A stretch of 64,000 bases of DNA, taken from positions 62,001 through 126,000 of the forward strand of contig JAKTTT010000052.1 of the NCBI GenBank assembly GCA_030581615.1. Direction: 5' to 3'. Below the pieces are notes generated by a model. That model had not been told where the DNA came from and ran no database searches. It saw nothing but the letters and a program-made list of their open reading frames with translations. This stretch comes from Alloascoidea africana. Lineage: Eukaryota; Ascomycota; Alloascoideomycetes; Alloascoideales; Alloascoideaceae. Position numbers and translations under genes: made by a program. How positions within the stretch are numbered: position 1 is the stretch's first letter; each line of letters starts with the position of its first letter. Positions 2,547 through 57,835 of this stretch are shown here, piece after piece.

Positions 2547-3451
2547 ATACTAGAGATTAAATACTTCTTTTCTGAACCATCTGTGTTCACCGACCGCTCA
2601 TTTACGTTCACTTTTTATGTTTCACACTGGACACCCATCAAGGCCATTTGTGTTCATGGATACTTACAGTTGTACATCTTTCTGTAACTTAACGGTTAAA
2701 CCTATTACTAATGACAGTTTGAACTTTTTCAAAATACAAATTCTATTAAATCTCACTATTGTATAAATCTCTCAATGACTCTTCCAAAAAAACTAATTTG
2801 AAGACTTGTCAGACTGCCATTCACACCCACCCAGTACATCTCCTCCAAAGAGGCTCATGCAAAGGGTCGAGATCATCGCTCCTTTCAAATGAACTTCCCC
2901 GAAGGCAAATCCACAAAACAAAAGGCAAAAATCCAGATGTCAAAATCACAAGGGATTAGACAAGCTAAACTATATTTCTCACTCTAGGGCATGAAGGAAA
3001 GTGTCATCAACCAAGTTGGGTTTGATGGCTCTTTTGAAGAGTCAAAGAGAGACGTTACCTATAGAAATGATCCTACTGTAGAACTTGTTAGTAAAACCTG
3101 TAAAATAGAATCCTGTGTTGGTGAAAACCATTAGGGCAGACACATACTGAAGTACGTCGACAAAGAAAAAAAAAAAAAAAGGAGAAGAGAGCGGGCATGC
3201 CCTTCCTTTTATATTTTTCCCACCTCTATTTTTTCACCCGGAGCCCTACTATCACAAGATGCCGTTACCCTGCCGCAAATCTGATGCTGGGGCTTGTGCT
3301 CTATAGGGCTGGCGCTAATTGACGGAAAACGTGAAACTACAATCCTAAGGTTTGAAATTCAGATCTAAGTTCTGTAACTGATTATCGTGACATTGTAGAA
3401 ACAAGTTAAAATAAAGGTAAACGAAGGAACAAAACATGAGAGGCTATTGCT
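2547..3451. other. convergent intergenic region
   Basis: Gap of about 900 bases between the 3' ends of the PXMP4-like gene and the GH45 gene. It contains a run of about 15 A near 3166-3180 and short open frames with no recognisable family. Probably two facing terminators; nothing else seen. Confidence 0.6.
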
Positions 3452-28970: not shown

Positions 28971-29635
28971 TTAAACTCTGGATTGTACCGGTCTACTATA
29001 TAAAGGAGCAGGAGGCGGTATCATCCCAGATATCGTTGGAGGTGGGGGTAAATATCTAGATTCCATAATTTCATAAGGTGCTCTTATTGGAGCCTGCTGC
29101 TGCTGCTGCTGATGTTGTTGTCTATTCTGTTTCTTGTGAGAAGTTTGATTGAGTCCTGGCATCCCCTCGTTAAGCGATTCCATAACGTCTCCGCCGGAAC
29201 CAATTGTACCTTGTCTGTTTATCCCGTAAGCCATTCGAAAATCGCCCATATCTATCGGTATGTTGTTTTCTCGTGCGGCCTCTATCCAACAACAAAAAAA
29301 AATCAAGAAAGTGTTAGGTTATGATATGTTATCTTGGTTCAATGATTGTTGTTTAGAAGTGTACTTACTTTCATAATGATCACAAACCAACTTTACATGC
29401 TGTCTTCCTGAAGCATGCGATCTCCTCACACTCATAGAGTCATGAGTTAAATAGACTATATTGAAATTGAAATGATTAATACACAATTTGAGAGAAACCA
29501 GGTTTTGTTTGTCACTTACCTTCGCAGTAATCGCAGAAATAGTAAACAAAAGAGAAACCAAAAAAAACAATAGATTGTTAGTACCGTGTACATCCAAAAC
29601 ACATGCAAAAGGTCTTGGATACGTATTTTAGGCAT
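28971..29635 (-). CDS. YHC1: U1 snRNP protein C, four exons, first intron AT-AC
   Basis: Exons 29627-29635, 29520-29541, 29369-29455 and 28971-29281 give 142 residues. The product starts [20 protein letters not shown] and continues RRSHASGRQHVKLVCDHYEK, an exact match to the U1-C zinc finger with Cys6, Cys9, His24 and His30 at their family positions. The tail is rich in Gln, Pro and Met, as in other U1-C proteins. Introns 2 and 3 have GTAAGT donors and AG ends. Intron 1 (29542-29626) runs from ATACGT to TTTAC, with a perfect TACTAAC branch site 36 bases before its end. U1-C stabilises pairing of U1 snRNA with the 5' splice site. The zinc-finger match makes the gene certain; the splice of intron 1 is inferred. 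Confidence 0.93.
29542..29626 (-). other. AT-AC intron 1 of YHC1
   Basis: 85 bases between the codons for Lys3 and Tyr4. The start is ATACGTATCC, i.e. the major-type GTAYGT pattern with A for G at position 1. The branch site TACTAAC is at 29583-29577. From the branch to the next exon there is no AG on the coding strand; the intron ends GTTTAC. No GT-AG alternative restores the U1-C N-terminus. Confidence 0.75.
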
Positions 29636-29861: not shown

Positions 29862-31161
29862 ATGTCGGGATCTACACGGAATGTTCAAAGTGCTGCTTCA
29901 TTATTGAACAACACGCTTGTATCTAAAGGGTTTATCAAAGAGGATGAACAACTGATGTTTTGTTCCATTTCGTCTGATTTTGAACAGTTGATAGGGGCTC
30001 CCAATAACCATGAAAATGAAAATGAAAATGACGAAGGAGAAACAAACATTCGGGATTTTAGTGTCACGGAGACGATGTATCGGAATGACAAGACCGTGAT
30101 TAATCTTATTTATCAGTTGGTTCAAGCGGTGGAAAAGGGCAAGAAGCAAAAGGAGAGTTTGGTGAATAGTCTTAATTCGCGTCAGAATTTGGAACAGCAA
30201 TTGAAGCAGGATAAGTTGAGGTTGGCGGAGAAGATTGATTTTTTGGAGAACAAGGTAAACAATCTGGAGAATTCAAAACAGTAAGTATATGTTTTGTTGT
30301 GCACATAGCAAGCACTCTACTAACAGAGGCAGGGTCGCTATTGCATCTATGCAAAGCCTTGAGCTTTCGAACCGGGGGTTGAAGGAAGAATTGGCGAAAT
30401 CGAAACAGTTTAGCGGTGCTTTGCGAGACAGATTTTCCAATGAACTACGGAGGAAAGATGCGCAAGTTGCAAAGTTGAAGGACCGATTACAGGACAACCG
30501 AAAGCTCAAGTTGATTTCGGGCATCCAGGCCCAGCACAGTGGGAATGGGCTTGAGCTGGAGCAGTCAGTGGTGGATGCTGTGCTTGCCCAGAGCAATTCC
30601 GCCAGCAGCATCACAAGCAACAGCGAGATTCTGAACAAGGAGACGGAGACGATCATGTCGGACCTCACGACGCTGATTTTCAACCTGGCCGTGGAGAAGC
30701 AGGACATGATCCAGCTGTGCCGCAATGTCCAGAGATGGGTTTCCGCGTGTGCCCAAGGCCTCCAGGCGCCAGCTGCGACGGCGACGGCGACGGCTACGAC
30801 TACGACTACGGATACAGCCAGCGACTCCATCCCACGGCCACAGGCCTTTCTGGAGTTCGAGGACGCCGCGGCCGGGGGGCTCGACCCGGGCAAGCTGGAC
30901 CTGGCGCAGATGGTGCTGGAGCAGGAGGACTTTGGCACGGTGCGGCACAGCGTCGCGGCGTCGCTGGAGGCGCTGCGGCAGACGCTCGGACAGGTCGCGG
31001 GCTCTCCACGGGCGCCTCCCGCGGAGCTCGAGGCGAAGGAGCGCGAGGCCGCGGCTCTTCGCGAACAGCTGGCGGCGGCCACGGCGAACTGGCGCAGTGC
31101 GATCGAGACGATGGAGCAGTGGCGGCGGTACCGGGGCGGGCGTGTGGGTGTAGCGGAATGA
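29862..31161 (+). CDS. ADIP-domain coiled-coil protein (SSX2IP/Msd1-like)
   Basis: Exons 29862-30280 and 30333-31161 (donor GTAAGT, TACTAAC just before the acceptor) join in phase to 415 residues. The N-terminal part (SLLNNTLVSKGFI...) and DKTVINLIYQLVQAVEKGKKQKE, followed by a long heptad helix and ALRDRFSNELRRKDAQVAKLKDRLQ, fit the ADIP family. That family includes human SSX2IP and fission yeast Msd1, which tie microtubule minus ends to spindle poles. A role at the spindle pole body is therefore plausible but inferred. From about residue 235 on, codons become very GC-rich (about 70 percent GC in places), unlike the first exon. The gene shares a 226-base divergent promoter with YHC1. Confidence 0.7.
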
Positions 31162-37767: not shown

Positions 37768-38257
37768 CTAAGAAATTTTGTTCCTGTTCCTATTCCTATT
37801 CCTAATCTTTTTTTTTTTGTTTGTGGAGGTGGGTAATTTCAAAGTTATCAACTTTTATCAGAAAGTTGTAGCAGAGCATTTCGTTATATAGATGTGATTT
37901 TGAAATGAAGGTGGTTGGCACAGATGAAGGATTCAAATATGTGAGTCCCGAAAATGGAACATTGCATCTGTTTTTATCGATCATTACCACTAACTATGCA
38001 CATGTTTCGTACCGCCGATAATTATGTCTGCGATGAGCCAGCCCTCTTGTACCTCTCATCATCACTATCTTTGGGGGGAAGGGGAATAATATAAACTGGC
38101 AAGTGCCCAATAATTACGATGAAAAACCCGATTTGATTTGGACCAGCCACTTTGCTTCCCATCCATACACACAGAACAATCCAGGTATATCCCAAAACGA
38201 CAAAAATTCAATTCAATTTCCACATAGAAACTACATTTAAAGGTACTAAATACTAAC
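37768..38257. other. intergenic region, SUN gene 3' side to MARVEL promoter
   Basis: About 490 bases. A TTCCTA-type repeat lies at about 37784-37806 directly upstream of the MARVEL start. No gene seen. Confidence 0.5.
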
Positions 38258-54658: not shown

Positions 54659-57600
54659 TTAGATGAGGTAGAAGAATAAAGAAGCCAAGCCAAGTACAAT
54701 TCCAGAAACTTGCTGCTTTGAAGCACCACCTTCATAAGAACTGGCGCTGACAGTATAGTTTGGAATTTCGACGGTTGGAGAAGAGGAAGAAATGATTGAT
54801 ATAACTGTGGAGGATTGTGGCAATGTTGTAGAAGTTGAACTAGGAGACTCGACTGAAGAGGTCTCGACTGTAGGTTCTTCTTTAGGAGTGGATGTGGGAA
54901 CAGAGACGACGGAATAAAAGCTGATCACAGAGCTCGTTTCAATTGTCGTGGGGATCGTACAAGTTGACAGACAGCTAATGGTTACAGATGAAGGGCCGGT
55001 TACGCTATATTCCGTGCTGTCGATAGTAAATGTTGTAGGCGTTGGATAGAATGTCGTAAACTTGGTGACTTTCGTTTGAGAAGCACTCGTTATCTTGATA
55101 GTCGAAGAAAATAGAGAAGTGGAACTGACTTGAATCTCTCGGTCAGTTGTTTTGGTTATCACAACGGAAGAGCTGCTTGTGCTTGGAACTATTGTCACAG
55201 AAGACTCGATGACGGTGGAAGGCGAACTGGTACTTTTGGTAACGGTTACAATGTCTTCTGAAACAGGAGCAGTTGTGGTACTTTCAACTGTAGAACAGAC
55301 AGAGTTTTCGCAAGTAGTAGTGGTAACACTCTCGATAGAACTCGAACTCTTGACAATGATAATTGTGCTAGTGCTCTCCGAAACCGGTACAGATGAGGTC
55401 TTGATTGTACTCTCAAGAATAGCTGAGCTCACAGAGGTTTCAACAGTTGAACAAGTAGAGCTTTCGCAAGTAACGGTAGTGACATTCTCGACTGGTGTTG
55501 ACAAAGATTCGGTTGTAGAAAAGCTCTCAAGCGTACTCTCAGAGCTTGAACTCTTGGTAATGATAATGGTGCTAGTGCTCTCTGAAACTGCTACGGATGA
55601 AGTCTCGATCGTGCTTTCGACAGGGGTAGAGCTCACAGAAACTTCAACAGTTGTACAAGTAGACCTTTCGCAGGTAATCTCGGTCGTGGTGATTTCTCTA
55701 GGAACAGTGGAAGAGCTGGTCTGTGATGAAGACTCGCTGGTAGTTTCTTCTGTAGAAATGACACTTGTGGTTAAGGCTGTGCTACTGCTCTCTGATACGG
55801 TCAGGTAAATAGTAGTCGTTGAAGTGCCTTCAGAAGATGATACTGATGGAATATCTCGCGATAAAATTTCAGTAGTGGTTTCTTCCTCGGAAGATGTCAC
55901 TGTCGTTGTACTTTCTGAAACTTCTGATGTCAGTACTGTACTCGACTTTGAGATAATTCTTGTGGAAACCGTGGTATCGATTGGAGGAACACTGGAGCTG
56001 GAAACGCTAGAAACAAATGTGACTGGAACAGTGCATGTAGTTTCGCAAGGGAAGGTAATAGTTGAGGGCTCAGTAACTATAATCGTCGAGTTTTTGAAAC
56101 TGATAGTGGTAGGAGTAGAGCAATATGTAATGTACTCTGTTACCCCAGTCGAAGAAACCACGGTGATTGAACTAACGGAATACTTGGAGACGGTTGTTGA
56201 TGGAATCACAGTAGAGGTTATGACAGATGTCTCCAATGTAGTAGATAAGTTTGGAACAGGTACGGTTTTCTCAGAAGAAAAAGCAGTAGAGTTTTCATAC
56301 TTTGTTTTACTGGAAGTGAGAGTGATCAACGTAGTTGTAGTTTCTTCTTCTGTTGATAAGGTAGTAGTCTTGGTAGTCTCCACAGAACTGGTTAAATTAG
56401 ACCAAGCAGTGGTGGTAGTTGGGGTAGTTGAAACTGTGATCTCTCTTGGAGTAGTACTGCTCTCAACTGAACATTGTGAAATACAACTGGTGATAGTTAA
56501 AGTAGTAGCTTCCGTAACAGTATAAGTCTTGCTATCGATAGTCAAAGTTGTAGGAGTAGGACAATAGGTGGTAAACGACGTGATCACAGCAGTTTCTGTC
56601 ACCGAAGTGGTTGCTTCTGTCGAGATAGTATAGAACTCGGTTTCTGTTACTGTTGGATTCACATAGCTGGTTTTGGATATTTCTCTTGGAGTAGTAGTGC
56701 TCTCAACTGGACACTGTGAGATACAGCTGGTGATAGTTAGAGTAGTGGCCTCGGTAACAGTGTAAGTCTTGCTATCAATAGTCAAAGTTGTAGGAGTAGG
56801 ACAATAGGTGGTAAAAGAAGTAATTATCGCTGTTTCAGTTACAGAGGTTGTCGCTTCAGTAGAAACAGTGTAAAATTCAGTAGTAGTCACAGTTGAGTTG
56901 ATAAAACTACTCTTTGAAAGCGAAGTTTCCTTTGAAGTTGTGCTGCTCTCCACAGGACATTGCGAAATGCAACTAGTGATAGTTAAAGTAGTGGCCTCGG
57001 TAACCGTGTAAGTCTTGCTATCAATAGTCAAGGTGGTCGGGGTAGGACAATAGGTGGTAAACGAAGTTATTATCGCTGTTTCGGTCACAGAGGTTGTCGC
57101 TTGAGTTGAAATAGTATAAAACTCGGTTTCTGTTACTGTTGAATTGACGAAACTGCTTTGCGATATTTCCCTGGGGGCAGTAGTAGTCTCCACTGGGCAT
57201 CTTGAAATACAACTGGTTATAGTCAGAGTGGTAGCTTCCGTAACAGTATAGGTCTTGCTATCAATAGTCAAAGTTGTAGGAGTAGGGCAGTACGTAGTAA
57301 ACGATGTAATTACAGCAGTTTCTGTTACCGACGTGGTTGCCTCGGTTGAGATAGTATAAAACTCGGTTTCTGTTACTGTTGAGTTTGAGAGAGTACTTTC
57401 CGTCACAGTTCTAGCACTTTCTGTAGCAGAGGACGATGGAGATGGAGACACATTGACATATACTGTTGACTGCGATAACGATGAAACATCAGAATCCGAG
57501 CTTGGTCCATTAATATAGCTTGTGAGCTGAGAAAGAGAGGAGCTGAGGGGGACAGAGCTGCTGGAAGGCTCGCTAATGTAAACAGTTGACTGGGACAAAG

Positions 57601-57835
57601 ATGGGACAGCCGTAACCGGAATGGTGCAAGGGCAGTCAGTAATGGTCAGGGTTGTTGGTTCAGTTACAGTATAAGTCACTCCATTCTGAGTAAATATCGT
57701 TGGGGAAGGACAATAGGTGGTGTAGGAAGTAACAGTAGTAGTTTCTGTTGAAGTAGCATTTGCGTATCCCGCGAATCTGCTTGCGGTGGTATATCCAATT
57801 GCACAGGCAAAAGTAGCCAGAAAAGAAAACTTCAT
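54659..57835 (-). CDS. GPI-anchored SED1-module adhesin-like wall protein
   Basis: 1058 residues. It has a signal peptide (about 1-18) and a GPI tail (SYEGGASKQQVSGIVLGLASLFFYLI split as anchor site and hydrophobic end). Seven modules of the type TTYCPxPTT...YTVTExTTLTIT, the Sed1-like wall motif, are present: one near residue 40-70, four nearly identical tandem units of about 80 residues (151-470), and two diverged ones further on. Between and after them are Ser/Thr-rich stalk segments with SSTVP, STSTI and similar repeats. Such proteins are heavily O-mannosylated, span the wall and may mediate adhesion or wall strength. No N-terminal ligand-binding domain is recognised. Confidence 0.88.
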   Translation of the reverse strand: MKFSFLATFACAIGYTTASRFAGYANATSTETTTVTSYTTYCPSPTIFTQNGVTYTVTEPTTLTITDCPCTIPVTAVPSLSQSTVYISEPSSSSVPLSSSLSQLTSYINGPSSDSDVSSLSQSTVYVNVSPSPSSSATESARTVTESTLSNSTVTETEFYTISTEATTSVTETAVITSFTTYCPTPTTLTIDSKTYTVTEATTLTITSCISRCPVETTTAPREISQSSFVNSTVTETEFYTISTQATTSVTETAIITSFTTYCPTPTTLTIDSKTYTVTEATTLTITSCISQCPVESSTTSKETSLSKSSFINSTVTTTEFYTVSTEATTSVTETAIITSFTTYCPTPTTLTIDSKTYTVTEATTLTITSCISQCPVESTTTPREISKTSYVNPTVTETEFYTISTEATTSVTETAVITSFTTYCPTPTTLTIDSKTYTVTEATTLTITSCISQCSVESSTTPREITVSTTPTTTTAWSNLTSSVETTKTTTLSTEEETTTTLITLTSSKTKYENSTAFSSEKTVPVPNLSTTLETSVITSTVIPSTTVSKYSVSSITVVSSTGVTEYITYCSTPTTISFKNSTIIVTEPSTITFPCETTCTVPVTFVSSVSSSSVPPIDTTVSTRIISKSSTVLTSEVSESTTTVTSSEEETTTEILSRDIPSVSSSEGTSTTTIYLTVSESSSTALTTSVISTEETTSESSSQTSSSTVPREITTTEITCERSTCTTVEVSVSSTPVESTIETSSVAVSESTSTIIITKSSSSESTLESFSTTESLSTPVENVTTVTCESSTCSTVETSVSSAILESTIKTSSVPVSESTSTIIIVKSSSSIESVTTTTCENSVCSTVESTTTAPVSEDIVTVTKSTSSPSTVIESSVTIVPSTSSSSVVITKTTDREIQVSSTSLFSSTIKITSASQTKVTKFTTFYPTPTTFTIDSTEYSVTGPSSVTISCLSTCTIPTTIETSSVISFYSVVSVPTSTPKEEPTVETSSVESPSSTSTTLPQSSTVISIISSSSPTVEIPNYTVSASSYEGGASKQQVSGIVLGLASLFFYLI
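56426..57385 (-). repeat. four tandem Sed1-like units in the adhesin gene
   Basis: Four units of 240-246 bases each, with the core FTTYCPTPTTLTIDSKTYTV identical in all. Likely to expand or contract by unequal exchange; assembly collapse is possible here. Confidence 0.88.

Follow-up and report, generated by a model that had tools for sequence, protein, structure and literature searches.

U2-dependent AT-AC (type II) introns, reportedly described by Wu and Krainer in 1997, have been found in animals and plants, hosts that also have a U12 spliceosome. Introns of this type, which is named in PMC7072748, combine AT-AC ends with internal signals of the major type. The first intron of the YHC1 gene presented here, which encodes U1-C, shows the same combination but differs in its host, a budding yeast, and in its location in the gene of a core U1 protein. 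Standard introns of S. cerevisiae are normally never AT-AC (PMC6726248). In a mutated standard intron of this yeast, only GT-AG surpassed AT-AC in efficiency among the end pairs (PMC6726248, where Parker and Siliciano 1993 is cited). The first-pass annotation had likewise stated that the yeast major spliceosome can splice paired A1/C-last changes in experimental introns. The G1A plus last-C change is the same as in YHC1, but it was engineered there and is natural here. The S. cerevisiae SUT635 AT-AC protointron is likewise a natural AT-AC junction used by the yeast major spliceosome; it lies, however, in a noncoding RNA in which GT-AG ends are used too (PMC6726248), whereas in YHC1 AT-AC is the sole enumerated junction giving the family protein. 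An AT-AC junction has also been reported in a coding yeast gene, S. cerevisiae RPL30 (PMC6726248, PMC5793784). Unlike YHC1 intron 1, it represents an alternative use inside a normal GT-AG intron, and evidence for it was lacking both for the authors of PMC5793784 and in two other studies. Among ascomycetes, a natural A at intron position 1 is further known from the AU donor of the Aspergillus telomerase RNA (PMC4299874). In that RNA, the exons are not ligated because of the A, and the 5' product is released, whereas the last C of the YHC1 intron should permit ligation. A survey of Yarrowia counted 409 of 2421 introns as non-canonical, with no figure for AT-AC in the section that gives this count (PMC13309789). 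Some AT-AC introns are contained in fungal annotations (PMC7072748), and AT-AC introns may therefore exist unremarked in this group. Among the matches listed in the literature searched, no report of an AT-AC intron in a budding-yeast YHC1 was found. The kind of intron is already known.

The window, to which all positions refer, is the whole stretch of 64,000 nucleotides that was analysed. Its minus strand carries a four-exon gene for U1-C, the last exon of which ends in a TAA stop (Table 1). We consider it very likely that this single detected U1-C gene has, as its intron 1, a natural AT-AC intron that is obligatory and is spliced out by the ordinary major spliceosome. Splicing at the AT-AC junction, the spliceosome responsible and the efficiency are what we infer from the sequence.

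Table 1. Predicted exons, introns and splice signals of the YHC1 locus, in window coordinates.
Feature	Position	Strand	Description
YHC1 exon 1	29635-29627	-	coding ATG CCT AAA = Met-Pro-Lys; letters ATGCCTAAA
YHC1 intron 1	29626-29542	-	85 nt, AT-AC ends, ATACGT...TTTAC
Intron 1 branch site TACTAAC	29583-29577	-	perfect match; branch A presumably at 29578
3' part of intron 1, U-rich and AG-free, ending TTTAC	29576-29542	-	
YHC1 exon 2, 22-nt microexon	29541-29520	-	Tyr4-Glu10, including the zinc ligands Cys6 and Cys9, and the first base of Val11
YHC1 intron 2	29519-29456	-	64 nt, ordinary GTAAGT...ATAG
YHC1 exon 3	29455-29369	-	87 nt, remainder of zinc finger including His24 and His30
YHC1 intron 3	29368-29282	-	87 nt, ordinary GTAAGT...ATAG, contains CCTAAC
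YHC1 exon 4	29281-28971	-	C-terminus and TAA stop

The AT-AC assignment follows from the reading frame of the microexon. Upstream of exon 2, the last stop in frame is the TAA within the TACTAAC of intron 1, and the 36 nt separating this stop from Tyr4 contain neither AG nor ATG. Because of this interval, the exon with Cys6 and Cys9 can be reached neither from an AG acceptor nor from an ATG of its own. Possible junctions were enumerated from the ATG at 29635, allowing introns of at least 20 nt and any acceptor between the TAA stop and a point 5 nt into the microexon. This yielded 775 open in-frame junctions, with GT-AG and GC-AG absent (0 each) and AT-AC occurring five times. The N-terminal sequence of the U1-C family was restored by one of the 775, namely ATACGT...TTTAC, which places CCTAAA directly before TATTTCTGC (predicted junction, 29627/29541). 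The first-pass annotation had proposed exactly this in-phase junction after ATG CCT AAA, together with the lack of an AG between TACTAAC and the Cys6-Cys9 exon, a perfect branch site of the major type and a 5' site of the yeast GTAYGT pattern with A1. The coordinates of the junction proved exact, the other features were found as claimed, and the donor fits NTAYGT. The consensus for yeast branch sites is TACTAAC or ACTAAC (PMC2483917). The intron accordingly resembles type II introns in its AT start and AC end, at a junction forced by the protein frame, and in its major-type donor (G5 and U6 in ATACGT) and branch site (TACTAAC).

With 774 further open in-frame junctions, some other odd acceptor or a non-ATG start inside the 36-nt interval might be used, and AT-AC would then be just one option among several. 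In S. cerevisiae, loss of Prp18 does activate highly unusual non-YAG acceptors (PMC10711555). However, the family sequence was given by none of the 774, and the ends found here fit NTAYGT and YAC, the best reported pair after GT-AG in the mutated yeast intron (PMC6726248). Use of another junction or start is in our view very improbable. Retention of intron 1 shifts the frame, since its 85 nt are not divisible by 3, and skipping of the 22-nt microexon does so as well, with the additional loss of Cys6. In S. cerevisiae, the C6A exchange in Yhc1 is lethal and Cys6 is essential (PMC3985668); the microexon bearing Cys6 should therefore be needed. RNA folding of the intron 1 region was no better than that of shuffled sequences (z 0.24).

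The unusual ends could also have arisen in the assembly, a draft of 138 contigs, if ATACGT...TTTAC were a plain GTACGT...TTTAG intron altered by two base errors. These errors, independent of each other, would have had to strike exactly the first and the last base and to yield exactly the compensating A/C pair. Moreover, YHC1 is otherwise clean, with plain GT-AG ends at introns 2 and 3 and an open frame over 142 codons. Next to YHC1, the Ran gene likewise has a plain GT-AG intron (GTATGT...TTAG). Together with YHC1 introns 2 and 3, it indicates that the assembly is not generally faulty here, and we judge an origin of the AT-AC ends in base errors to be highly unlikely.

The identity of the gene, proposed at first pass from Cys6, Cys9, His24 and His30, was upheld by protein comparisons. 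The joined protein of 142 aa matched Pfam zf-U1 over the full 38-position model (E 2.6e-17), its N-terminal zf-U1 domain carrying all these residues, and it matched the U1-C chains of solved U1 structures starting at residue 1. PF06220 was present in 30/30 homologues listed. From these 30, 11 were fetched; each of them (11/11) shared the expected U1-C N-terminal stretch, with MPK immediately before YFC. No full-length protein of the same species was found among the matches of the homologue search. When residues 38-142 were used as the query, none of 77 candidates was a homologue at E 0.001. A six-frame protein search of the 23.18-Mb assembly gave two matches, both exons of the YHC1 locus, and a second U1-C copy was not found in it. 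This sole U1-C match found in the assembly has abnormal splice ends, as might be expected of a decaying copy in which a functional exon 1-exon 2 junction no longer exists. Decay is, however, at odds with the intact zinc finger and reading frame and with Yhc1 being an essential subunit of U1 (PMC3985668). That the locus is a decaying copy is thus extremely improbable.

The splicing machinery of the genome was examined for components of both spliceosomes. A U1 RNA was matched with 64.9 bits (E 7e-15), just below the family gathering score of 69.5. Its 5' end, ATACTTACC, is the ordinary recognition sequence, as is the ATACAGAG carried by U6. When compared with the complement of the genome's U1, the intron 1 donor AAA/ATACGTAT agreed at 7/11 positions (mismatches at -3, -1, +1 and +4) vs 8/11 for each of the donors of introns 2 and 3. 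U11, U12, U4atac and U6atac gave no match in the genome in searches that scored 39-48 of 955-1636 first-look candidates for each RNA and had no positive control. The searches leave the absence of the minor snRNAs unproven because few candidates were scored and no control genome was positive. According to PMC5499181, the U12 spliceosome was lost across all Ascomycota, and the lack of a U12 spliceosome claimed in the first-pass annotation is consistent with both this loss and the detection of U1 and U6 beside four undetected minor snRNAs. The genome resembles those of budding yeasts: among the best named relatives of its RNA14 are Trichomonascus, Nadsonia and Yarrowia (37-42% identity; 58% for another relative).

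U12-type introns have a donor of ATATCCTT or GTATCCTT and a branch site like TTCCTTAAC; this consensus was not found at the predicted junction, with its donor ATACGT and branch site TACTAAC. A sequence resembling the U12 donor core, GTATCC, does occur at intron position +5. Since the searches for minor snRNAs had no positive control, YHC1 intron 1 might be a minor intron spliced by a U12 spliceosome that they missed; AT-AC introns are a substantial class of U12 introns (~26% in human, PMC10639083). Against this, the four minor snRNAs remained unmatched, the donor is ATACGT and not ATATCC, the branch site is of the major type, and a junction at GTATCC would find no AG acceptor in the 36-nt interval. 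Splicing by a minor spliceosome therefore has only a minute probability.

The frequency of AT-AC patterns was compared with controls. In 264 kb, comprising the window and further stretches of the genome, ATAHGT...CTAAC...YAC without AG occurred three times, while the other 15 combinations of first and last base occurred 1-12 times each, GT-AG being highest at 12. Across the whole genome (23.18 Mb), ATAYGT-TACTAAC-TAC gave 8 matches vs 30 for the reversed control, and the wider CTAAC pattern 134 vs 694. The AT-AC motif by itself is no commoner than chance, and the case therefore rests on the junction forced by the protein. By eye, at least two of the eight ATAYGT-TACTAAC-TAC matches have no AG before the terminal TAC, namely YHC1 and a place on contig C19. 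The latter looks like an ordinary GT-AG intron (GTACGA...TTACAG) of a gene for a membrane protein, its acceptor TACAG beginning with TAC. We take this gene to be KEI1. Six AG-free, pyrimidine-rich places (L023-L028) were chosen by eye among the listed matches of the wider pattern. Also judged by eye, two of them (L023 and L028) are plain GT-AG introns that keep the frame, L024 is coding sequence throughout, and at L025-L027 no long frame is open on both sides. An ORF-continuity survey of introns returned 813 raw candidates and was too noisy for an estimate of end-dinucleotide frequency. Within the window, a further AT-AC-like place lies at 37937-38012 (+).

Exon ligation is believed to involve pairing between the first and last bases of an intron. 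For removal of YHC1 intron 1 by the major spliceosome, U1 would pair with AAA/AUACGUAU despite the mismatches at -3, -1, +1 and +4. U2 would recognise UACUAAC, and the first step would link the branch A to A+1. The pair of A+1 and last C would then stand in for the usual G-G contact, allowing exon ligation at UUUAC and giving a product in which Met-Pro-Lys is followed by the microexon with Cys6 and Cys9. The cost of A+1 is expected at U1 binding. In S. cerevisiae, U1 associates with A+1 oligos but hardly any long-lived complexes are formed, and Yhc1 contacts the duplex of U1 and the 5' splice site near +1 (PMC9436412). In S. pombe, G1A prevented the first step of TER1 intron splicing, and with the AU donor of the Aspergillus telomerase RNA splicing halts after step one (PMC4299874). 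Efficient splicing of intron 1 is therefore not guaranteed. With C in the last position, the contact needed for the second step should be regained. Intron 2, next to the microexon, has no CTAAC-type branch site, the nearest by eye being ATTAAT. The microexon together with such an intron 2 may make YHC1 harder still to splice.

Position +1 is checked twice, once as G+1 for long-lived binding of the U1 snRNP (S. cerevisiae) and once through pairing with the last base for exon ligation. If the proposed AT-AC splicing is true, an intron in U1-C's own gene would fail the first check and pass the second through a compensating pair, and both checks would be separable at an endogenous, probably essential locus. 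Gene finders restricted to GT-AG and GC-AG introns would also miss or truncate YHC1. Autoregulation of YHC1 through intron 1, suggested in the first-pass annotation, is possible but unproven. Its simplest form would be a positive feedback, in which less U1-C leads to less U1-C mRNA: U1-C acts near +1, and the weak A1 donor may need it. Homeostasis of U1-C would need an unproductive path that is favoured by, or dependent on, U1-C. The A+1 donor might have been kept as a built-in gauge, the output of U1-C depending on how the U1 snRNP copes with a mismatch where U1-C makes contact, and skipping or retention leading to unproductive RNA; we offer this as a speculative and rather doubtful idea. The plain alternative is drift, in which the +1 change came before or after the compensating change and was tolerated because little U1-C is needed. 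In human cells, alternative splicing of the U1-70K gene links U1C with U1-70K (PMC3798272). This shows that such loops exist, although it concerns another gene and another mechanism than those of YHC1.

Further features were noticed in the window. In the divergent neighbour gene, a short candidate intron (GTAAGT...TACTAACAG) is located at 30281-30326 (+). Its branch site directly abuts the AG, vs a gap of ~14-29 nt in the three other introns read. The usual branch-to-AG spacing in Yarrowia is 1 nt, to which this candidate comes close. A fungal U3 snoRNA gene was identified at 2804-3090 (-) with 175.5 bits (Rfam). Positions 54659-57835 contain a Ser/Thr-rich ORF of 1058 aa. It has repeated blocks, its C-terminus is hydrophobic and, read by eye, it looks like a cell-wall protein.
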